Both the position numbers and the translations under genes were made by a program. Positions 9,267 to 63,899 of a DNA stretch of 64,000 bases are shown here, in pieces. Below the pieces are notes generated by a model. The model made no database searches, was not told the origin of the DNA, and saw only the letters and a program-made list of their open reading frames with translations. The DNA comes from an uncultured Sphingomonadaceae bacterium (GTDB lineage Bacteria; Pseudomonadota; Alphaproteobacteria; Sphingomonadales; Sphingomonadaceae): the NCBI GenBank assembly GCA_947503245.1, contig CANNCV010000001.1:1797501-1861500 (forward strand), read 5' to 3'. Position 1 is the stretch's first letter; each line of letters begins with the position of its first letter.

Positions 9267-10580
9267 TTATGCGCCGAACACCCGTCCAAAGATCGTATCG
9301 ACATGTTTAAAATGATAATCCAGATTGAAACGGTCGCGAATTTCCTGTTCGGAAAGGGCATTGGTGACTTCTTCATCGGCCAGCAAAAGGTCGAGCAATG
9401 ATAATGCGCCATCACTTTCCCATACCTTCATCGCGTTGCGCTGTACCAGACGATAGGCATCTTCACGGCTGACACCAGCTTGTGTCAGAGCAAGCAAAAC
9501 GCGTTGCGAATGGACAAGGCCTCCCATGCGATCCAGGTTCTTCTGCATACGTTCTGGATAGATCAGCAATTTATCGACAACGCCTGTTAGACGCCGCAAT
9601 GCAAAATCGAGCGTGATTGTAGCATCAGGGCCAATGAAGCGTTCAACCGAGCTGTGGGAGATATCACGTTCGTGCCACAGAGCGACATTTTCCATAGCAG
9701 GAACTGCCGCCCCGCGGACCACACGGGCAAGGCCTGTGAGATTCTCAGTCAATATCGGGTTGCGCTTATGCGGCATCGCGCTGGAGCCTTTTTGGCCTGG
9801 TGAAAAATATTCTTCTGCCTCTAGCACTTCAGTGCGCTGTAAGTGGCGAACTTCTGTTGCCAGTCTTTCGATAGAAGAGGCGACAACTCCCAAATTTGCA
9901 AAATATTGGGCGTGGCGATCACGGGGAATAACCTGTGTGGATACCGGTTCGACTGAAAGGCCAAGCTGGTCAGCAACATATTCCTCAATTTGCGGGTCGA
10001 TATTGGCAAAAGTTCCAACAGCACCGCTGATTGCGCAGGTTGCAATTTCTGCTCGCGCTGCAACCAGACGGTCACGATTGCGCGCAAACTCTGCATAGGC
10101 TTGGGCCAATTTCAAACCAAATGTCGTGGGTTCAGCGTGGATACCATGGCTACGGCCGATGGTGGGGGTGTAACGATGCTCTTCTGCTCTGCGTTTAATC
10201 GCATCAAGCAAATTATCCATATCTGCAAGCAACAAATCACTGGCTTGTGTCAGTTGCACGGCCAAGCATGTGTCCAACACATCAGAACTGGTCATGCCCT
10301 GGTGCATAAATCGCGCTTCATCGCCTACCTGTTCTGCCACCCAGGTTAGAAATGCAATGACATCATGTTTGGTAACAGCTTCGATCGCGTCAATTGCAGG
10401 CACATCAATTTGTGGTTCGGTGGCCCACCAGTCCCATAACGCTTTTGCAGCGCTTTGCGGAACCACACCCTTATCTGCCAAAGCCTGAGTGGCATGAGCC
10501 TCTATCAGAAACCAGATACGAAACTTGTTTTCCGGTTCCCAAATTGCGGTCATATCGGGGTGGGCGTAACGAGGGACCAT
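9267..10580 (-). CDS. purB: Adenylosuccinate lyase
   Basis: The 437-residue enzyme acts twice in purine synthesis, releasing fumarate from SAICAR and from adenylosuccinate. The fumarase/aspartase superfamily signature GSSAMPHKRNP is present, along with TSSDVLDT and the catalytic-histidine region GRSHGIHAEPTTFG. The length matches the shorter bacterial PurB class. It is first in the leftward series and faces the DoxX/NDH-2 fusion gene across a 192-base divergent gap, where promoters for both should lie. Confidence 0.97.
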   Translation of the reverse strand: MVPRYAHPDMTAIWEPENKFRIWFLIEAHATQALADKGVVPQSAAKALWDWWATEPQIDVPAIDAIEAVTKHDVIAFLTWVAEQVGDEARFMHQGMTSSDVLDTCLAVQLTQASDLLLADMDNLLDAIKRRAEEHRYTPTIGRSHGIHAEPTTFGLKLAQAYAEFARNRDRLVAARAEIATCAISGAVGTFANIDPQIEEYVADQLGLSVEPVSTQVIPRDRHAQYFANLGVVASSIERLATEVRHLQRTEVLEAEEYFSPGQKGSSAMPHKRNPILTENLTGLARVVRGAAVPAMENVALWHERDISHSSVERFIGPDATITLDFALRRLTGVVDKLLIYPERMQKNLDRMGGLVHSQRVLLALTQAGVSREDAYRLVQRNAMKVWESDGALSLLDLLLADEEVTNALSEQEIRDRFNLDYHFKHVDTIFGRVFGA

Positions 10581-13744: not shown

Positions 13745-13869
13745 GGTCCAATCTTACCCTCCCTACATATTTGCTGTGAAAATTAGCATAGCAGTTTAGA
13801 GCTTCAATATCTATTTGGCTTAGGTTCATAGCCAATTGCTTATCATCCGCATTTGCCCCAAAAGACATT

Positions 13870-16800
13870 ATGCCCCCGCCAAGTAACACTGAGACAGCAG
13901 ATGAGAATGATGCGCGACCATTTTGGAAGCGCAAATGGTTTGCTATTGTCTTGGTTTCTCTTGTTGTTCTGGCTGTTGTCATATTGATAGCTTGGACACA
14001 GCGTTTGGTGATTGCTGATAGATATGTGCAGGAATATCTTGATGATCTGGGGGTTGATGCAAGTTATGAGATTGTCGATCTTGGCGTTAAACGCCAGCAT
14101 TTACGCAATATACGTATAGGTGACCCGCAACAGCCGGATCTGGTCATTGACGATCTGGTTGTCATTACTGCTCCCCAATTATCCGGTATATTGGTTGATG
14201 AAATAAGGGTCAAAGGTGTGCGCTTATTTGGTGAGTGGCGTGATGACCGTTTGCATTTCGGTGTGCTTGACCAATTTATCTATACAGATTCTGACGCGCC
14301 GCTCGCGCTGCCTGATTTGACGGTTGCTATTGATGATGCACGAGCAAAAATAGGAACGCCTTATGGTGCCATTGGGCTCTCTGCCAAAGGTGAGGGCCAT
14401 TTGCTGGATGGTTTTGAAGGCGATGTTGCTCTTATCGCAAAAAATCTGGATTTTGATAGCTGTAAGCTCGCCAAGCCCAGCGCCTATTTGTCGATTTCCA
14501 TCGATTCGCTGCAACCCAGAATAACTGGCCCTTTGCGCTTCAATGGTGTTGATTGCCCTATATTGGCTGCAGGTTCCGGCGATAGTGGCCTGCAAACAGA
14601 TATTGTAATCGCTCGTGATCTTGATGCTGCAGAACTTTCTTTGGTGGGTGAATTGAACCAAGCATTTTACCGCCTTGATAATAAACAGAGCATTGAAGGC
14701 GGCACTATTAGAATCGCTACTAAAGGTGACATTGACGCAGCGTCATTTGATGGTGAGGCTGAAGTGAATATTACTGCATTATCATCGCCATGGGCAGATG
14801 CCGGCAGCGCTAAGCTGGATGTTGCCATGACGGATGAACTGCCATTTGATTCCCTAGGCGATCTTTCATCTTTGTCGCTTGCTTACCGACTGAGCGCAGA
14901 CAATATCGCTGCGAAAGGAAGCTGGCGCAATGCACTCGCAAGCTATGGTGACGGTCTTGAAGCAACGCCCATTGGTCCGCTTTGGGCAAAGATTTTGCAA
15001 GTTTTGGAACGCAGCGCAGCTTCGTCAAGGCTATCGGTATCTGGCAATGTTGATGATAGCATTATCACTGCGGACAGCGCGACATTAAGGGAAGGTGATA
15101 ACAGGCTGATTACCCGTGTGCAGGATGTGCGATATTCCTTGCGTGAAGCGGGTATTGCCGGATTACAAAGCTTTGGCTTTGCCTTTGTTCATCCTCAGCT
15201 TCCCCGACTTTCTGGCAATTGGCAGGGTGAAGGCAATCGGCCAAGAATGACGCTGGAAATGCCAGAATATCGCTCTGGCAATGCCAGTCTTTTGTTGGAG
15301 CGGACAATTGTCACGCTGTCACCAAATAACCCCGATCGCATTTCCTTTGATGGGGCGATGCGCTTAGACGGTCCATTGGCGGGAGGGAGCCTAACAGGCG
15401 CGCGAATCCCGCTCTCGGGCACGCTGGTTGATGGCTCACGCTATTATGCAAGCAATGACGGCTGCCAATCTATCGGCTTTACAGAGCTTAATGTCTCTAC
15501 GCTTGCTGCTGGCCGTCAGTCACTCACATTTTGCCCCAAAGCAAGGCAACCATTATTAGCATTTGGCGATGATGGGCTTGTTATAAATGCACAAAGCCAG
15601 GCTTTGGCCATTGATGCTACTCTTGGTGGATCACCATTATCCATTGCTGCAGATGGTGTTGATATTGGTTATCCGGCAACCTCTAACATCAGCAATCTTA
15701 GCGTGCTTATTGGTGATGTAGATAGCGGAACATCCTTTTCGGCAGGTACGCTGAGCATGTCTGGCGGCAGCGATTTGGTTGGGGAGTTTGATGGCGCCAA
15801 TGCATTTATTGGCAATATCCCTTTATTGCTCAGCGATGGGCAAGGAGAGTGGAGCTTTGCTAATTCGGTTCTGGATATCTCATCCAATAGTTGGACAGTG
15901 AGTGACCGTGCAGAGGCGCAGAGATTCAATCCACTTACCGGACGTAATATCAATCTGGTGCTGGAAAATTCTATCATTCTTGCCAAAGGTGATTTGTACC
16001 TCCCTGATAAGCGTGATCTTATTTCATCAGTCAGCATCGTGCATAATCTTGAAAATGCAACGGGCGGGGCTGATGTGATTGTGCCGGGAATCAGCTTTAG
16101 TGAAAATCTGCAACCCAATATGCTCACCGACCTGACCATTGGAATCGTCGAACTTGCAAATGGTAGTGTTAGCGGAACTGGCCGCATAGATTGGGATAGC
16201 GATAATATTAGCAGCACAGGCAAATTTGGTACTGATGGTCTTGATTTCGCGGCTGCTTTCGGACCAGTGAAAGGTTTGAAGGGGGATATTGTCTTTTCCG
16301 ACCTTCTGGCGTTTGAAACACCCCCCGGTCAGATTGTCACACTGGATGAAGTGAACCCAGGTATTGCCGCTTATGATGGTATAGTGCGCTATCAACTGCT
16401 CGCTAATCAGCGTGTGGTGCTTGAAGAAGCGCATTGGCCCTTTTCTGGCGGTGATTTAAGCTTAGAGCCAACGACTTTCAATCTTGCGATTCCAGAAGAA
16501 CGCGAATTGAATTTCGAGATGAAGGGATTGGACGCGGCTGCTTTTTTGACGCAATTTGATTTTGAAAATCTGGCCGCCACAGGGACTTTTGATGGGCGGT
16601 TGCCGATGCGGTTTAACCTTGCAGGAGGACGGATTGAGGGCGGTCGTCTGGTCGTGGGGCCTGCTGGCGGAACATTATCTTATATTGGCGAACTGACCTA
16701 TGAAGATTTGGGTGCCTATGGCAATTTTGCTTTTCAAAGTTTGCGCGATATCCGCTATAAAACTCTGGTCGTAGAAATGGATGGGCCACTTGATGGGGAG

Positions 16801-56061: not shown

Positions 56062-56083
56062 ATTATCAGTTTTGATAATCTTT
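56062..56083. terminator. Hairpin between convergent genes
   Basis: ATTATCA (56062-56068), loop GTTT, TGATAAT (56073-56079), then CTTT. It lies in the 34-base gap between the E2 gene and the large surface-protein gene, whose stop it touches. The stem is AT-rich and so only moderately stable. Confidence 0.5.
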
Positions 56084-59000
56084 AGCGGCCAACCAATTGA
56101 CCAATGCTTTGTTGGTCAAACTTCAGGCGGAAGGTTATGAATGGGCCGCTGCGTGTGTAGCGTGCCTGTTCAAAATCACGATCTTCAAAGCCTACAAAGT
56201 TATAGCCGATAATGACATTGCTGTTCTTAAAAGGTGCCAGTCCAACAGTCGGGCCCCCTGCATAGGCAATGCTGTCAGCATTATTACCAATTCTTACTGT
56301 GCCAGCGCCGCCAACCGAAACTGTGTCATTAACATCGAAACGGATATCCGCGCCAACAACATTGGTCCAGCCTTCGATATCGTCCAGGCCAAAGCGGTCA
56401 AAGACATAACGTGTACCCCAGAAGAGGCTGTACTCACCACGTTCCCAGAAACGCAGGCCGTCATCGACACGGCGATCGTCATTCTCATGGATTGGTGTGT
56501 AGTTTACACTCAGGCTGTTAATGACCCGGCGTGAAGTAACATCACCGCTTACCGTCAACAATGCGCCGCCAATGGGGCCAGCTTCGCCAGCGATAGCGTT
56601 ACGAACACTGTCTTCACGATATTCAAGGCGGTTCAGGAATGACCAGCGGCTATCATCAGGACGGTGTGCCCAGCTAAGCTCGCCTTCAATATTCGTGGTT
56701 TCAACACCGCCATTGGTTTCAGCTGTGAAGTAGCTGAACAGTCCAGCAAGCGAGCTGCCATTACCAATTTGCTTCAGCGCAGCGGTGTTAATTCCATAAC
56801 GGTCACCCAGCTCACCAAAGCGATATTCTGCACGGCTAGCCCAGCTCCAATCATCCTTGCGATAGGTTGCCCCTGCGGTCAGCGCGATAAAGTCTTCGCT
56901 GATCGCGCCGGTGGTAGCGAGGAAGCCGCCCGATGCAACAGGCTGCAAAGGATTGAGTACGTCTTCGGTTTGGATAGCACCATTTAATGTCTGATTGGCA
57001 TCCAAAGAGAAATCGACTGTCCAATTGTCATCCAGTTTCAAAGATTGAGCGAAACCAAGTGACGCGAAGGTGCGTGGTCCAAATTCTTCGATCGACTGCT
57101 GATTGGCAGTGGTCAGGATACGAGCGCCGGCCCATGGTGACAGTTCGAAACCAACACGTGCTGTTTGTGCATCAAACGTTTCACCGTCAGCAATTTCATA
57201 TCCGCCAATCACTTTGATATCGGGCGTGATAGCATAGCGAGCACCGATACGATGGCGGGCAGGGAAGTCCGCACTGTCATTATTGCCACCAAGTGCAAAC
57301 TCGGTTGAGGCATCAATTTCCAGCTTATTATCAAAGAAGCGTTTTGCACCACCAATATTGACCAGTGTCGAACGGTTGACGCTGCCATCAGCCAAACGAT
57401 CTTCTGCATGGGTCAGACCGGTACGCAGAGATTGTGTATCACCGCGATACTCAATGCTGGCGCTACCTGCACGGCGACGGGCACCGGAAAAGAGGAAGTC
57501 TTCCTGATAAGCAGCCAGAGCAACGTTAATCTGCTTGTTGAGACGATAGCGTGTATCGATACCGAATTTGCGCGTGCCGGCTTCAACACCATTTTGCTGA
57601 CCCAGGCCGAAATTCACAGCCTGACGACGGACATAAGCAAGTACATCGAGTTTTGCACCATGATGCTCAGCTTCAACCAACCATGCAGTTGCTGTGCCAG
57701 GGTCTGCAATGCCGCTATTGGCATTGCTGTCGCCATCAGAGATTGCGAATTCAGCACGCAGCTCAGTCTGTACATCTGGCTGATAGCGAATATCGACACC
57801 GCCAAGATTGGTGGTTTGATCAGCGCCTTCATCATGAATGGCACTCGCCGCTATCTGCAATTTCTGGTCTGCACTGCGCCAGCTGACACGGCCGCCAGCA
57901 TTTAATGTACGCTCACCAATGCCATCAACTTCATAGGTGATGATGATGAACTGTGGATCAAGGTTAATCCGGCTCAAAATAGGCTCACGGAAGCGCAAGG
58001 TGCCAGTCACATAATCAATATCATAATCAATATGGCGTGTCAGTTGACGCTCTTCGACTATGCGTTGTGATTGGAAGCGGTCACGGATTTGGATAGAAAC
58101 GCGTTCGCTGTTGATGATGACATCGCGCGACGACAGGGCATAAGGGCCAGTCAGGCCATTGCCTTGCAGTTCTTCGCGGCGGAAGCGGAAAGGCGTATCG
58201 GCTGCGAATGCGGTCGCTGAAACCTGATCAGAGCGATATTCACTTTTCACACCGTTGAAAGAACGCTGATAGCGGGACAGCTGAGATTCGTTCAAGCCAG
58301 TCTCATAATCACCAAACAGAGCATAGAATTGCGGGCGTTCAAGGCGCAGATACAGGCGGCGAATGCTTGCAGCGTCAAAGCGTTGCTCTGAACGGTCCGC
58401 ATAGATTGTGTAATAGCTACGTGGATCGATAACACCGCCAAATTCGGTTTCATCGCTCTCTTTGTTGCTATCATAAGCCAGTGTCAGCAACCATTTGCCC
58501 TGCACACGGCCTTTTGCATAGAGCGCAACACGGCCATCAAGGTTGATGCTGTCTTCGTCGTCTGACAGAGCCTCTAAACGGCTGTCCAGAGTGTTGAAGC
58601 CAACGGTACCAGCTGCAAAGCCTACAACTGTCCAAGGACGGTTGCCCGGATCGAGCCACGTTTCAACGCGTTGTGTGCGCTGTGTTTCGCCATCTTGGAA
58701 GTTAAAGGTCACGCTGACCGTGCCTGACGCAGTGGTTGGCGCCAGTGTTACATAAGCGATGCCATCATCACCTTCGACACGCCATACCGGCCGTGCACGC
58801 TCAAGACCTGATAATTGGTTGGCCTGTTGTGCATCAACCTCAATAGCGGGCTGATAGGGTGCAGGAACCTGGAAATCACCAACAGAGTCATGACGGATAG
58901 GCTTACCATCGCGATCGGTCAGGCGCACAGCGATAACTGGGCGTGTAACACCATCTGCAATCAGTATCGAACGCTCTTTCAAGAATTCTGCGTTCAGTGG

Positions 59001-61193
59001 ACCTGATGCATAATGCACGGTGCGGGTGAGTTCTTCGACAACATTACCGCCACGGTTCAGAATTTTTGCGGTCAGGACATTTGAACCTTGGTCGAGTTCA
59101 ATTGCACGCCATATGCTGATGCGCCAGCGACCATCAGGGCTTTTACGAGCGCCTTCAAAAGTCAGATTGTTGACGGCTTTGCCATTGGCGAACAACTCAA
59201 CGGTCTGTCCGGCCATATGCTTGATAACAACGCGCAGTGATTTGGCACGTGGATTGTGGTTTTCCTGTGGGAAGACCCAGCCAATACCAGCGGTTTCGCC
59301 TACAAACCAGTCACGATCGCTGCCAGCAGCTTCTTGGTCGGTAAGAATGTCAGGGCGCTTGGTCGCAGCTTCAACAGCTGCAGGAGCGTCACGTGGGGCA
59401 ACTTTGCGGGCACGGAAGTCTGCGCGCTTCAATGCGCCGCCACGGCCTTCTACAAAGCGTGAAATATCACTGCCCGCGCTGCGTGTATTGCGTGCACAAT
59501 CCATCGGCGCAAGGTCCAGAGGGAAGGTTGATGGGTCAACTTGAACCACATGCAGTCCTGGCAATACGCCTTCAAAGTGATAGCGACCATCTTGATCGGT
59601 AATCGCGAAGCGACCGTCTTGTAGCATAACACGTACACCAGCGATGCCGTTTGCCTGGCGAGGGTCAACGGTGCAGGCACCATCGGTAACCCGGCCGATA
59701 ATCGTAAAGCGATCGGAAATGGCGTCACGTGCAATGCGGGTAAAGGCTTCAGCTACGCCGCTGACAGCGCCGCGTGTATCACTTGCAGTTGCTGTGTTGG
59801 CAATGTCACCAGGTAATGCATCAGGGCGAACCTCGGTCAAATAGGTCAGCAATCCACTGCCGCCGGCAGGAAGTGCAGGGACTTCAAGCGAAAAGCTTCC
59901 ACCGTCAGGCGCTATATCGGCGGTAACCAAATCGCCATTATAGCGGATGGTGTCTGCTCTTAAGCGCAGGGCAAATGGCAGGTCATCTGTGATGGTGATA
60001 CGGCCCGTATCACGGCGCGAATCTGAGTTGCGTACAATAATGCGATATTGCAAAGCATCACCCGGTTCCGCAACGGCAGCTGACACTGTTTTGGTCAAAG
60101 CAAGCGGTGCACCTGGTTGATCGACAGGAATATCGATGCGTACAGGGGCAGGGTCATCAAGGGTTATGATGCCACCAAAAGAACCATCTGCAATGATGAA
60201 GGCTTCGCCATCTGGACGGCGCAATAGTGCGATTTCTTCAGGTGTGGCGTTCGAAATCCATGTGAACGGAGCAGGGGGCTCTACAATGATACGATAGTCA
60301 CCAGGACGCGCAAATGGGAAGCGGTAAAAACCTGGCTCAAATACATAGACTGCGCCGCTGGCATCAGTGACTGTTGATCCTGTAAATATGGTTGACGGGA
60401 AGGCGGAAACGCCGTCGTCACCGAAAACTTCTGCTGGTTGACCAGTTGCATTGTCGATCAGAGTTACGCGCGCACCAGAAACCGGAGTGCCGTCCGCACT
60501 GTCAAATACCAAACCAAATGGGTCAATTAATATATCAACGCTAACCTCACCTAATAGTTCGCCGCCATCATCATCGCTAATATCGATGCTGAGCTCACTG
60601 CCAGGAACAACCGACAGGATACAATTGCCTTGAACAGGCTGTGGAGGCACGGATGCTGTATTGATGACCCCGACAAAGTCACTCGTGTTAACACCAGTCT
60701 CTGTAACAGAGATGGTTTCACGGTCACCTTCTTCAGTGGTCAGGACAATGTTAAAGCTATCAATCGCATTGGCGTCCAGATTATGGGCCGGTGAGTTGAT
60801 AAGAATAACAAGCGGTTCATTCGGTGAGATCACAGTCCGGGGGCTTAAAGATGCAGGTGCCGTCTCAAGACCTGAGAACACACCGCCAAGTGTGATCGGA
60901 ACAACGCCATTATTGCTTTGGCATTGGGTCTCGGGCAAATTGATCTGGGTGCCGCCACCCGGAGGATCATCAAACTGAAAAGTTGTAATAATAATCGGAG
61001 CGTCCGGGGGGGGCGGCGCTACGACCAAATCCACTCTGTTCGAAGGAAGCTGTACGCGTCCTTCAGAACCATCCCATTCAACAAATGCGGTATTACTAAT
61101 GGTTTGAGCATGCGCATTTGCAGAAAGCAAAGCGGCCGCCAAACCTATAGTCGCACTAGCGAGGGGTTTAAAAAGAGTGGTTAATATGTTCAT
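56082..61193 (-). CDS. Large DUF11/carboxypeptidase-regulatory-like protein with C-terminal outer-membrane barrel
   Basis: The 1703-residue protein has a signal peptide (cut near AHA-Q30), a module also found at the start of its neighbours (SNTAFVEWDGSEGRVQLPSN), a SdrD/carboxypeptidase-regulatory-like domain at about 225-305, a DUF11 repeat at about 364-485 (ALTKTVSAAVAEPGDALQYR), and a second regulatory-like domain at about 497-555 (DQDGRYHFEGVLPG). Beta-sandwich regions follow to about 890. From about 900 to the end, alternating hydrophobic and polar strands with aromatic girdles suggest a beta-barrel, the last strand being GPFITFRLKFD. Function is unknown; a surface-display or secretion platform is my inference. 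Confidence 0.75.
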   Translation of the reverse strand: MNILTTLFKPLASATIGLAAALLSANAHAQTISNTAFVEWDGSEGRVQLPSNRVDLVVAPPPPDAPIIITTFQFDDPPGGGTQINLPETQCQSNNGVVPITLGGVFSGLETAPASLSPRTVISPNEPLVILINSPAHNLDANAIDSFNIVLTTEEGDRETISVTETGVNTSDFVGVINTASVPPQPVQGNCILSVVPGSELSIDISDDDGGELLGEVSVDILIDPFGLVFDSADGTPVSGARVTLIDNATGQPAEVFGDDGVSAFPSTIFTGSTVTDASGAVYVFEPGFYRFPFARPGDYRIIVEPPAPFTWISNATPEEIALLRRPDGEAFIIADGSFGGIITLDDPAPVRIDIPVDQPGAPLALTKTVSAAVAEPGDALQYRIIVRNSDSRRDTGRITITDDLPFALRLRADTIRYNGDLVTADIAPDGGSFSLEVPALPAGGSGLLTYLTEVRPDALPGDIANTATASDTRGAVSGVAEAFTRIARDAISDRFTIIGRVTDGACTVDPRQANGIAGVRVMLQDGRFAITDQDGRYHFEGVLPGLHVVQVDPSTFPLDLAPMDCARNTRSAGSDISRFVEGRGGALKRADFRARKVAPRDAPAAVEAATKRPDILTDQEAAGSDRDWFVGETAGIGWVFPQENHNPRAKSLRVVIKHMAGQTVELFANGKAVNNLTFEGARKSPDGRWRISIWRAIELDQGSNVLTAKILNRGGNVVEELTRTVHYASGPLNAEFLKERSILIADGVTRPVIAVRLTDRDGKPIRHDSVGDFQVPAPYQPAIEVDAQQANQLSGLERARPVWRVEGDDGIAYVTLAPTTASGTVSVTFNFQDGETQRTQRVETWLDPGNRPWTVVGFAAGTVGFNTLDSRLEALSDDEDSINLDGRVALYAKGRVQGKWLLTLAYDSNKESDETEFGGVIDPRSYYTIYADRSEQRFDAASIRRLYLRLERPQFYALFGDYETGLNESQLSRYQRSFNGVKSEYRSDQVSATAFAADTPFRFRREELQGNGLTGPYALSSRDVIINSERVSIQIRDRFQSQRIVEERQLTRHIDYDIDYVTGTLRFREPILSRINLDPQFIIITYEVDGIGERTLNAGGRVSWRSADQKLQIAASAIHDEGADQTTNLGGVDIRYQPDVQTELRAEFAISDGDSNANSGIADPGTATAWLVEAEHHGAKLDVLAYVRRQAVNFGLGQQNGVEAGTRKFGIDTRYRLNKQINVALAAYQEDFLFSGARRRAGSASIEYRGDTQSLRTGLTHAEDRLADGSVNRSTLVNIGGAKRFFDNKLEIDASTEFALGGNNDSADFPARHRIGARYAITPDIKVIGGYEIADGETFDAQTARVGFELSPWAGARILTTANQQSIEEFGPRTFASLGFAQSLKLDDNWTVDFSLDANQTLNGAIQTEDVLNPLQPVASGGFLATTGAISEDFIALTAGATYRKDDWSWASRAEYRFGELGDRYGINTAALKQIGNGSSLAGLFSYFTAETNGGVETTNIEGELSWAHRPDDSRWSFLNRLEYREDSVRNAIAGEAGPIGGALLTVSGDVTSRRVINSLSVNYTPIHENDDRRVDDGLRFWERGEYSLFWGTRYVFDRFGLDDIEGWTNVVGADIRFDVNDTVSVGGAGTVRIGNNADSIAYAGGPTVGLAPFKNSNVIIGYNFVGFEDRDFEQARYTRSGPFITFRLKFDQQSIGQLVGR

Positions 61194-61206
61194 GGGGGCA
61201 AAGGGT

Positions 61207-61245
61207 GGGGATCGTCAGTCAGGAGGCTCCTTCCCGACGATCCCC
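61207..61245 (-). promoter_or_regulatory. Strong hairpin ahead of the large surface-protein gene
   Basis: GGGGATCGTC (61207-61216) and GACGATCCCC (61236-61245) form a perfect 10-bp stem; the 19-base loop holds a nested AGGAGGCTCCT. It fills the 59-base gap between the third and fourth genes of the cluster. No T run follows on the transcribed strand, so attenuation or mRNA processing is likelier than termination. Confidence 0.6.
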
Positions 61246-61252
61246 GCCATCC

Positions 61253-62356
61253 TTAGTCTACAGTAACTCGGAAAACGAGCGTACGTGCATCGCCTGCAGC
61301 GACTGTTGGGATTGTGCCCGTAACAGTGTTGCTTGCGAAGCTGCCACCTGCGGCGCCATCGGCGTTACAAGTAAAGCTTGTTGCTATGTCACCGGTAATC
61401 GTGCCGTTAAGCAGATTGCCGAAGCTCGAGTCATAAGTGATATTGGCCAAGAGCGGATCCGATATTGTAATGCTTGAAGCATCGGCAACGCCGGACGCGT
61501 TTCCGATTGCGATACAATATTCTACGACCGCACCTGGAATAGCTTTAGGGTTAGTCGTGCCATTTACTGGATCAGAGATAACCGTAGAGATTTTTCGTAC
61601 GGTAATATCAGCAGCTTGAACGGTGTAATCGTCGGTAGCGCTGAATGAACCATCGCGGTTTGCGTCGGTATCACCTGCACCATCAGCGAATACGGTTTCA
61701 ACACCGTCTGTGTCTGCACCGGTATCTTCAGTAATTGCTGCACCAACTGTGCCGCCAACTGTACCACCTTCACGCGCAGTTGCTGTCAATGTTACAGCTG
61801 CAACATCACCATTAACCTGAGCGTTAGGAATTGAACCGATTACAAATACAGTAACGTTCGCGTCTACGCCCAGCTCATCGATAAATGTTTGTGTATCGTC
61901 AGCAGGGTTATAGATGCCGTCGCCATCATCGACGAAAATTTGCAGCGAACCTACGTCAAAGTTGTCGGTTCCGCCATTTGGAGCAGCACCGCCGCCTTGG
62001 TTTGCTACTGCAAGCTGGAAGTCGAGAACTTCGTTTGACGTGTTGGTTACAACAAAAGTTGTTACCGGTGGCGGTGTATCACTGTCATTTTGTCCAGGTG
62101 ATACTGATGTTGTTGCATTATCAGATGCAGCAACCGTCAAGTTGATCACACGGTCAACTTGAAAGGTATCAGAGGCTGTCTCTTCCGTCTGATCAACGCC
62201 GCCAACCTGGTAATTAACCGTTACGGTGTTATCGATATCTGTGCCCGCCAACGTTGTGTTGGGGACTGTAGTCGCTTGTGCAAACGCTGGATTGGCTGCG
62301 CCAATCGATAATGCGAATGCCGAAGCAGCTACAAGAAACTGCTTTCTACTATTCAT
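61253..62356 (-). CDS. Secreted DUF11-type protein, paralogue of the 62886-63899 product
   Basis: The 367-residue protein has a signal peptide ending NPAFAQ, the module AGTDIDNTVTVNYQVGG, a Ca-binding-like loop IFVDDGDGIYNPADD, the strand VDANVTVFVIGSIPN and, at the C-terminus, a DUF11 domain (AADITVRKISTVISDPVNGT, AIPGAVVEYCIAIGN, ITISDPLLANITY). Each part has a counterpart in the same order in the product of 62886-63899, so the two arose by duplication. It contains two cysteines in the last domain (EYCIAIG and FTCNAD) that may form a disulfide. Confidence 0.75.
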   Translation of the reverse strand: MNSRKQFLVAASAFALSIGAANPAFAQATTVPNTTLAGTDIDNTVTVNYQVGGVDQTEETASDTFQVDRVINLTVAASDNATTSVSPGQNDSDTPPPVTTFVVTNTSNEVLDFQLAVANQGGGAAPNGGTDNFDVGSLQIFVDDGDGIYNPADDTQTFIDELGVDANVTVFVIGSIPNAQVNGDVAAVTLTATAREGGTVGGTVGAAITEDTGADTDGVETVFADGAGDTDANRDGSFSATDDYTVQAADITVRKISTVISDPVNGTTNPKAIPGAVVEYCIAIGNASGVADASSITISDPLLANITYDSSFGNLLNGTITGDIATSFTCNADGAAGGSFASNTVTGTIPTVAAGDARTLVFRVTVD

Positions 62357-62418
62357 TTCTGGTCTCCATTCTTCTTCAATTAATCCAAAGTATTCCGCTT
62401 GGATGTTGTGCGGTGTGA

Positions 62419-62889
62419 CTATTTAACTACGCCACGAAACGTTAATTTCCCTTCATCACCATTTGTAATATCTTCTAAAATGACCCAGCGAATGTGCGTG
62501 ACATCTGCTGGTGAAGCGGGACGAAAACGCCCATCGTCGAGGGCGATTCGCAAATCTTCCAATCGCGCCCAGTTTTTTCCGCCATCAACGGAAACTTGTT
62601 CGCTGCCATCCAGGGTTTCCTGGAATCTTACGGCAGCGGGAATCGGGTTTGTAATCACAACATCGGTTGCCGGTGTCGGACTGGTGTTTTTGTAGCTGAC
62701 TACAAAAACAAGCCGGTCACCCGGGATCAAAGATGTTGGTCTTTCAAGAACAACAGCAGGCTTTCCTGCCGTTTTGGTAATGCGTTCGACAAAAATTTCG
62801 CTTTCAAGCGCGATATTGCCATTGGCCAGAGCAGGCGCGGAAAATATTGCGCTGACGGCTGCTAAAATAGTGAAAAATTTACGGATCAT
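62419..62889 (-). CDS. Small secreted DUF11-type protein
   Basis: The 156-residue protein is a signal peptide (ILAAVSAIFSAPALANG) plus one DUF11-like domain: LIPGDRLVFVVSYKNTSPTP, ATDVVITNPIPAAVRF and VSVDGGKNWARLEDL. The last part, RPASPADVTHIRWVILEDI, is common in small sphingomonad proteins of this kind. The start overlaps the previous gene by four bases (ATGA), so expression is coupled. It could be a subunit or partner of the larger paralogues; the role is unknown. Confidence 0.75.
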   Translation of the reverse strand: MIRKFFTILAAVSAIFSAPALANGNIALESEIFVERITKTAGKPAVVLERPTSLIPGDRLVFVVSYKNTSPTPATDVVITNPIPAAVRFQETLDGSEQVSVDGGKNWARLEDLRIALDDGRFRPASPADVTHIRWVILEDITNGDEGKLTFRGVVK

Positions 62890-63899
62890 GGGGTCACCTC
62901 GTCATCAATTTCGACTTGGAAGGTTATGGTGCGTGTCTGCCCGCCGGGAACGTCGCCAAGATCGACAGAGATTGCGGTTCCATCAAATGCACCGGCATCA
63001 TCAGCGGTGTCGGCATCGGTTAATGACGCACCTTCCAATGTAATTGTCTCAGTCTGGTAAATTGTGTTCGCTGGGATAGGGTCAGAGATGATAACATTCT
63101 CAAGTGTGCCACTACCCGTAACGGTGGCGATCAGCGAATATGTGATGATCGATCCAGGAACGGCAGAAGTGCCGCCAAAAGGATCGAGAACAGTGGCTTC
63201 TTTTACCAATGCGATAGAGGCGGCTTGAATGATGAAGAAACCACTGTCATCATCATCAGCACCAGTCGTACCGACAACAGCATCACCGCCGCCATCGCCT
63301 TGACCATCGAATACAGTGCCTGGGGCGCCAGTTCCGGTCACTGCCTCAGCAGTAAGCGAGACCTCTGCACGTTGACCATCTTCGGCATCGGCAGGAATAT
63401 TGTTAATAATGAAAACGGTGATATTGGCGTCTGGTTCAAGAACTGGATCATTCACACCAGCGACATAAATCTCATCTTCGCCGGGATCATATACGCCATT
63501 ACCATTGGTATCGAGCACGATTTGTACCAGCGCAGTGTCAAAATCATCACCAGGACGCGCAGTGTCTGCGGTTAGCGTAAATGCTTCTGATCCGTTACCG
63601 GTGTTGGTCACCAAATATGTCAGAACTTCGTCATCTGCATCAGGTGAAGTCGCGACATCGCCCGGATCGGAAGAATCAACCGTCACATCCAGAAGCTCGT
63701 CTACAGTTATGGAAACAGTATTAGAGGGCAGTTCAACCCGACCATCTGGTCCGTCAAAGCTTGCCGTCGCAGTGTTGTCGATCGGTGTACCGGCACGTGT
63801 GCCAGCAGCCAGAGCAGTATGACTGGTCGTCATTGCAAGGGCAAAAATCGATATTGCGCTTAGACGCAAACAACCGGTGGAGAATTGTGATTTAAACAT
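62886..63899 (-). CDS. Secreted DUF11-type protein, first gene of the cluster
   Basis: The 337-residue protein has a signal peptide (LSAISIFALAMTTSHTALA), the module GTPIDNTATASFDGPDGRV with LPSNTVSITV, a Ca-binding-like loop LDTNGNGVYDPGEDE, the strand PDANITVFIINNIPA, and a C-terminal DUF11 domain (AASIALVKEATVLDPFGGTS, AVPGSIITYSLIATV, VIISDPIPANTIYQTE). The protein is very acidic (runs such as DADDE and GADDDDSG). It is the first of four leftward genes; the 101 bases before it, up to the window end, must hold the promoter but no clear elements could be assigned. Confidence 0.78.
   Translation of the reverse strand: MFKSQFSTGCLRLSAISIFALAMTTSHTALAAGTRAGTPIDNTATASFDGPDGRVELPSNTVSITVDELLDVTVDSSDPGDVATSPDADDEVLTYLVTNTGNGSEAFTLTADTARPGDDFDTALVQIVLDTNGNGVYDPGEDEIYVAGVNDPVLEPDANITVFIINNIPADAEDGQRAEVSLTAEAVTGTGAPGTVFDGQGDGGGDAVVGTTGADDDDSGFFIIQAASIALVKEATVLDPFGGTSAVPGSIITYSLIATVTGSGTLENVIISDPIPANTIYQTETITLEGASLTDADTADDAGAFDGTAISVDLGDVPGGQTRTITFQVEIDDEVTP

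Follow-up and report, generated by a model that had tools for sequence, protein, structure and literature searches.

In chaperone-usher pili such as type 1 and P pili, each subunit contains an immunoglobulin (Ig)-like domain left incomplete by the absence of its last strand, and the N-terminal extension of one subunit completes the domain of the previous subunit. Tip adhesins such as FimH have a two-part layout in which the binding domain comes first and the incomplete domain last. DUF11 domains, also named CLIPPER, can carry an isopeptide bond: crystal structure 9IFR has one between Lys715 and Asn806, with Asp748, and some DUF11 domains are without it (PMC12617251). Here we analyse four genes, D, C, B and A, in a 64,000-nucleotide stretch of the genome of an uncultured Sphingomonadaceae bacterium (GenBank assembly GCA_947503245.1, contig CANNCV010000001.1, positions 1,797,501 to 1,861,500; hereafter the window). 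Our results suggest, with a probability that we put somewhat above even, that this cluster encodes an outer-membrane-anchored surface fibre whose subunits are joined by a naturally split DUF11 domain. The fuller proposal is one of natural split-isopeptide polymerization in Gram-negative bacteria, with covalent self-ligation head to tail in the absence of a sortase or PapD-type chaperone, interchangeable adhesin caps, a very large barrel anchor that supplies the last donor strand, and a dead acceptor, C, acting as chaperone; we hold it to be plausible, at slightly below an even chance.

Donor hairpins, truncated domains and a divided triad

The four genes lie on the minus strand in the order D-C-B-A, the products of all four have DUF11-type domains, and a four-base overlap joins D and C. 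The initial annotation had described this layout, including the overlap, and had assigned signal peptides and DUF11-like domains to all four proteins, which our analysis bears out. Each N-terminus has a hydrophobic stretch and an AxA-type signal peptidase site (read by eye in the translated open reading frames, ORFs). A DUF11-type match in A reaches 35.4 bits, over the Pfam cut-off, and A also has two CarboxypepD_reg stretches; the NCBIfam model B_ant_repeat exceeds its cut-off in A, C and D; and the DUF11 domain of B is visible only in a Pfam scan restricted to the last 119 residues of the protein (27.0 bits). B and D are paralogues with 31% identity.

The truncated ends, hairpins, conserved residues and gene conservation described below are read from the sequence. 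D, B, C and a group of adhesins all finish on a last strand of the form F-R-V-x-[IV]-[DNK], which the stop codon follows. Of the 114 positions of the Pfam DUF11 profile, B and D reach only to 84-85, and the part that is absent is the N-T-A strand. Directly after the signal peptide, A, B and D carry a hairpin, I-x-N-T-A ... S-N-x-V, that resembles the strands absent from the truncated DUF11 ends. Over all loci, which are related and in which B and D are paralogous, so that neither these counts nor the residue counts below are independent events, the hairpin was present in D (82/83), B (85/87) and A (76/87) and absent from C (0/89) and the adhesin tips (0/23). The C-terminal strand stood at the stop codon in 82 of 83 D, 86 of 87 B and 86 of 89 C proteins, and in 21 of 23 adhesin tips; the locus ended within the remaining two.

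Profiles of the B and D hairpins detect the N-terminus of A, and the reverse is also true. Inside other proteins, the B, D and A hairpin profiles gave a single match, to an internal DUF11-like domain in locus L098 (E 6e-4), where, in line with expectation, the matching segment follows immediately on the preceding strand. When whole genomes were searched for the hairpin, only A, B and D matched, with 3 matches in the window's genome, 3 in genome G409 and 6 in genome G207, which has two clusters; one distant genome gave two very weak extra matches. Joining the hairpin of A or D to the C-terminus of B raised its Pfam DUF11 score from 27.0 to 32.7 or 32.4 bits (controls, 26.3-28.0), and joining the same hairpins to C raised it from 23.6 to 27.6 or 27.9 bits (controls, 23.8 and 24.5). 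Within the internal DUF11 domain of A, the same strand adds 9 bits. Strand complementation of truncated DUF11 ends by N-terminal hairpins thus appears well supported by these patterns.

The residues of the published isopeptide bond are divided in the same way. A profile built on the complete internal DUF11 of A aligned to 9IFR (E 9e-6), with Lys368 and Asn466 falling on the bonded Lys and Asn; the Lys-Asn spacing agrees with the published numbering, and by our own count the Asp is off by no more than one residue. Across relatives this internal domain retains its triad (Lys 66/71, Asp 71/71, Asn 71/71). A full triad within one domain was not found in B, D and the adhesin tips, whose chains end before the Asn strand. 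Their acceptor domains have the Lys in all 189 sequences aligned there (D 81/81, B 84/84, adhesins 24/24; 7 further sequences were not aligned) and the Asp in all 196 (D 84/84, B 88/88, adhesins 24/24), and the Asn is found on the hairpins, in 248 of 257 (D 82/83, B 86/87, A 80/87). The A hairpins without Asn come from ORFs that are truncated or from distant relatives, in some of which Ser stands in its place. Most simply, the isopeptide bond would be made between chains, with C as a non-reactive acceptor. A remark in the initial annotation on isopeptide stabilization was apt, but the sequence suggests linkage from subunit to subunit and not only within each.

Three unlinked proteins in the window's genome end in an acceptor domain (Table 1). 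In other genomes, acceptor-end proteins adjoin A, with ice-binding domains or repeats of DUF7933/DUF11 (Pfam). The H-type lectin, P-, ice-binding and cadherin/Ig domains of the acceptor-end proteins are binding domains. All acceptor-end adhesins are without an N-terminal hairpin. An 888-residue protein of genome G100 (L099:610-3276) looks like two von Willebrand A domains together with DUF11 domains and has a truncated DUF11 end; the same genome also has a distant A-like protein.

AlphaFold2 modelled D with a predicted local distance difference test score (pLDDT) of 91. Integrin and macroglobulin matches of this model reflect common beta-sandwich folds, and the archaeal bundling-pilus protein AbpX, a candidate relative of D at E 0.023 in a PDB profile search, was dismissed as a chance match, a histidine kinase having scored the same.

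Conservation of the cluster, barrel protein A and protein C

Searching the genome collection with A recovered 80 loci, Lysobacteraceae and Moraxellaceae records among them. The D-C-B-A order is kept in nearly all, including those whose flanking genes differ, which argues that the cluster is not a chance arrangement. A class-wide survey was too sparse for judging co-occurrence, and the order Sphingomonadales (197 genomes) was surveyed in its place. Consistent with the initial annotation having treated the genes as one set, a full-length A was found in 52 of these genomes, and all 52 also have D and C. D occurs in the same 52 genomes and in two broken assemblies, the exceptions to co-occurrence being contig breaks. 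C is present in all 52, in G527 only unlinked, and is missing between D and B in three clusters (L026, L073 and, by position, G527). A survey of the phylum recovered the cluster in Gammaproteobacteria and further proteobacterial families as well, where A is longer, B/D have additional copies and adhesins adjoin the cluster. The best reading is still a dedicated surface system, as first suggested, in which A would serve as anchor or exporter, but confinement of that system to sphingomonads does not stand, given these other families. We found no published description of the cluster in the open-access literature, whose coverage is incomplete and may miss earlier ones.

The barrel-like C-terminal half first noted in the 1703-residue A is also seen in its predicted structure. 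An AlphaFold2 model of residues 617-1703, made with 53 native homologues aligned, has about 32 or more long antiparallel strands from residue ~1079 onwards, at moderate confidence (pLDDT 70; predicted template modelling score, pTM, 0.42). Residues ~850-979, among the most conserved stretches, were poorly predicted. Structure searches with Foldseek gave no clear winner as a specific barrel relative: MtrB, BtuB, LptD, FimD, SprA and a Deinococcus S-layer complex matched about equally. Pfam gave no PF00577 usher match in A at E<=1, and none to the 12-strand PF03797 autotransporter barrel or to DUF560, the outer-membrane protein of the type 11 secretion system (T11SS). A T11SS paper with frequent text matches to DUF11 concerned mainly DUF1194 (matched by the start of its name) and DUF560. 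A is best read as a putative outer-membrane anchor and perhaps an exporter.

Distant proteins that have only residues ~846-1176 of A in common occur in other alphaproteobacteria. Two loci with distant A-like outer-membrane proteins (L097:5442-11962 and L098:147-11194) have the N-terminal modules as a separate gene beside a DUF11 adhesin. In L097, a truncated DUF11-like domain closes the adjoining adhesin and an N-T-A hairpin opens the protein after it, a pattern that reads as the same donor/acceptor logic in a split layout.

In the C protein of this locus, the triad Lys is replaced by E35 (62785-62787) and the Asp by N81 (62647-62649). Across loci, the Lys column is Glu in 81/90 and the Asp column Asn in 82/90, and C nonetheless keeps its length and other conserved residues. 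Because C retains the fold signature in the absence of Lys and Asp, these residues are not needed merely for folding. A lone C in genome G435 (L094:6709-7176), which has no A, B or D, lies at the chromosomal site of the cluster, between the E2 and 5-FCL genes, and suggests that C has a function apart from the other three proteins. The window's genome has a second, unlinked C paralogue (L089:7785-8345; G000:C1 ~1306788-1307243).

Between B and A, RNA folding identified a strong hairpin (z below -3) in 59 of 74 loci, with a mean z of -4.4 after B compared to -0.4 after C and -0.1 after D. A T run stands behind it in about half of the strong-hairpin loci, which is not the case after C or D. This element is probably a partial terminator that would leave A scarcer than D, C and B. 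It goes beyond what the initial annotation described, as do the hairpins at the N-termini, the truncation of the C-terminal domains, the division of the triad and the unlinked or adjacent adhesins.

Table 1. Coordinates of the cluster genes, their features and the unlinked adhesins (window positions unless a contig or locus is named; res., residues; aa, amino acids)
Feature	Coordinates	Strand	Description
Gene D	62886..63899	-	337 aa; signal peptide and donor hairpin at the N-terminus, then one beta-sandwich domain (res. ~70-226) and a truncated DUF11-type acceptor (res. ~227-337) at the C-terminus
Donor hairpin of D	63681..63794	-	I-x-N-T-A ... S-N-x-V; Asn42 codon 63774-63776
Acceptor domain of D	62889..63221	-	Stop codon before Asn strand; Lys233 at 63201-63203, Asp273 at 63081-63083
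Gene C	62419..62889	-	156 aa; signal peptide and single truncated DUF11-like domain, without donor hairpin
Gene B	61253..62356	-	367 aa; donor hairpin, then a middle domain and a truncated DUF11 acceptor
Donor hairpin of B	62135..62248	-	Asn43 codon 62228-62230
Acceptor domain of B	61256..61612	-	Lys255 at 61592-61594, Asp300 at 61457-61459; ends at DUF11 profile position 84
Terminator-like RNA hairpin B/A	61207..61245	-	GGGGATCGTC...GACGATCCCC; structure conserved, sequence not
Gene A	56082..61193	-	1703 aa; donor hairpin, then middle domains, with CarboxypepD_reg stretches and one complete DUF11 among them, and a long C-terminal barrel (predicted)
Donor hairpin of A	61008..61106	-	Asn34 codon 61092-61094
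Complete internal DUF11 of A	59709..60110	-	Intact triad Lys368, Asp403, Asn466
Most conserved core of A (res. ~846-1176)	57666..58658	-	Common to distant outer-membrane proteins of other proteobacteria
Predicted outer-membrane barrel of A (res. ~1079-1690)	56124..57959	-	~32 long antiparallel strands in predicted structure
672-aa adhesin	C1:6711-8729		P-domain, complete DUF11, acceptor end
501-aa adhesin	L129		H-type lectin domain, acceptor end
513-aa adhesin	L130		DUF6923, Ig/cadherin-like domains, acceptor end

Downstream of the cluster, the other strand carries branched-chain keto-acid dehydrogenase genes and thyA. Upstream, beyond the window, lie a tRNA, a 6S RNA with a 5-FCL gene, a SAM riboswitch with metX/metZ, zapA and transketolase; genes on both sides were named by reading translations. 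In locus L007, just upstream of the window, the tRNA, 6S RNA and SAM riboswitch are at 10265-10338, 13835-13991 and 14136-14252, and the 5' end of the listed 5-FCL ORF overlaps the 6S RNA.

Proposed assembly and alternative readings

From these features we infer an assembly pathway in which the subunits, given their signal peptides, would be exported by Sec and would then meet in the periplasm or at A, where a subunit's hairpin would fill the open DUF11 domain of the preceding subunit. The chain would run from adhesin tip through D/B to A. An adhesin could stand only first in the chain because it is without a donor hairpin, and A only last because its C-terminus is the barrel, leaving it with a donor but no terminal acceptor. 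A Lys-Asn isopeptide bond would form spontaneously with the help of Asp and lock each joint, with no need of a sortase. The barrel of A would hold the chain in the outer membrane, and A might perhaps also be the exit pore for the other parts. The most likely role of C, and the weakest step of the pathway, would be to cap donor hairpins reversibly before assembly.

Several observations weigh against this pathway. The Pfam gains on joining are modest, with only 1.2 bits for the C-terminus of D and its own hairpin and no DUF11 gain from appended hairpins of B, and small home-made DUF11 profiles, too poor to measure the effect, gave no clear gain. The hairpin Asn is replaced by Ser or another residue in A or D of L117, L118, L120 and L123, so no bond can form there. 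C occurs alone in 24 surveyed Sphingomonadales genomes without A or D, which none of the proposed roles explains, and a few clusters are without C. The barrel model of A is only moderate in confidence and matches many barrels about equally. Finally, the hairpin of B or D may insert into its own chain.

If the joints were held by donor strands without a covalent bond, hairpins would complete the domains of neighbours as in chaperone-usher pili, with Lys and Asp kept as a salt bridge. All of the topology evidence, from the hairpin and acceptor counts to the genome-wide hairpin search, fits such a fibre without a bond, as do the DUF11 domains described without isopeptide bonds (PMC12617251) and the Ser in place of Asn in a few relatives. 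However, Lys, Asp and Asn are near-invariant although they lie on different chains, and the related C lost both Lys and Asp yet keeps its length and other conserved residues. We consider a non-covalent fibre unlikely. Insertion of the B or D hairpin into the C-terminal domain of its own chain, yielding monomeric surface proteins exported singly through A, is in our view distinctly less probable again. The hairpin has a pLDDT of 96-97 in the AlphaFold2 model of monomeric D, a figure that reports confidence and not position relative to the C-terminal domain, whereas A has a donor hairpin only, and the adhesins and C an acceptor end only, so that partners in other chains are needed; moreover, a domain of ~150 residues lies between hairpin and acceptor in D.

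The least probable of the alternatives, and to our mind a very improbable one, has A as purely a type 9-like secretion channel and the common C-terminal domain as a mere export signal. The adhesins do have that domain in common, SprA is among the many barrels listed by Foldseek, and A has a weak SprA-like stretch, but its score against the SprA/Sov family TIGR04189, 8.9 bits, is far under the curated cut-off of 200, and a secretion channel leaves the matching hairpins on A, B and D and the split triad unexplained.

If a fibre joined covalently through split DUF11 domains is confirmed, Gram-negative bacteria of several proteobacterial families would own a sortase-free route to covalent surface fibres, engineered tag/catcher pairs would have a counterpart in nature, and both a widespread uncharacterized family of outer-membrane proteins and the truncated DUF11 proteins would gain a function.

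Comparison with known fibres and ligation systems

The combination of incomplete domain and donor extension that defines chaperone-usher subunits has a candidate counterpart here, read from sequence and built from other domains. The two-part adhesins and the outer-membrane barrel protein encoded alongside are further likenesses. In contrast to those pili, the donor here is a DUF11-family hairpin, the barrel protein itself has a donor and the bond is probably covalent; C, B and D gave no PapD-like chaperone match (Pfam, E<=1). Nor was the LPXTG-type sorting signal of sortase pili found, as B, C, D and the adhesins end at the last strand. A resembles the type 9 translocon SprA in being a very large single-chain outer-membrane barrel, and the type 9 C-terminal sorting domain gave no match in B, C and D (Pfam, NCBIfam) or in the adhesins scanned with Pfam. 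The ~32 strands predicted for A also set it apart from the classical autotransporter, with its 12-strand PF03797 barrel.

Archaeal threads of Sulfolobus are likewise head-to-tail donor-strand fibres with proposed inter-subunit bonds and no sortase (PMC9715654). They differ in that their bond joins an N-terminal Asp to Asn and that they have no outer membrane, and we saw no sequence relation to them. The DUF11/CLIPPER domain of 9IFR belongs to the same family, has Lys, Asp and Asn at the same positions and has a complete copy in A. The published bond lies within one chain (PMC12617251), whereas the domain of B, D and the adhesins is divided over two. Such a division recalls SpyTag/SpyCatcher, in which a Lys-bearing catcher bonds spontaneously with a strand, supplied separately, that holds the partner residue. 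Those pairs are man-made and mostly CnaB-type splits; the split proposed here would be natural, CnaA-type and used for polymerization.

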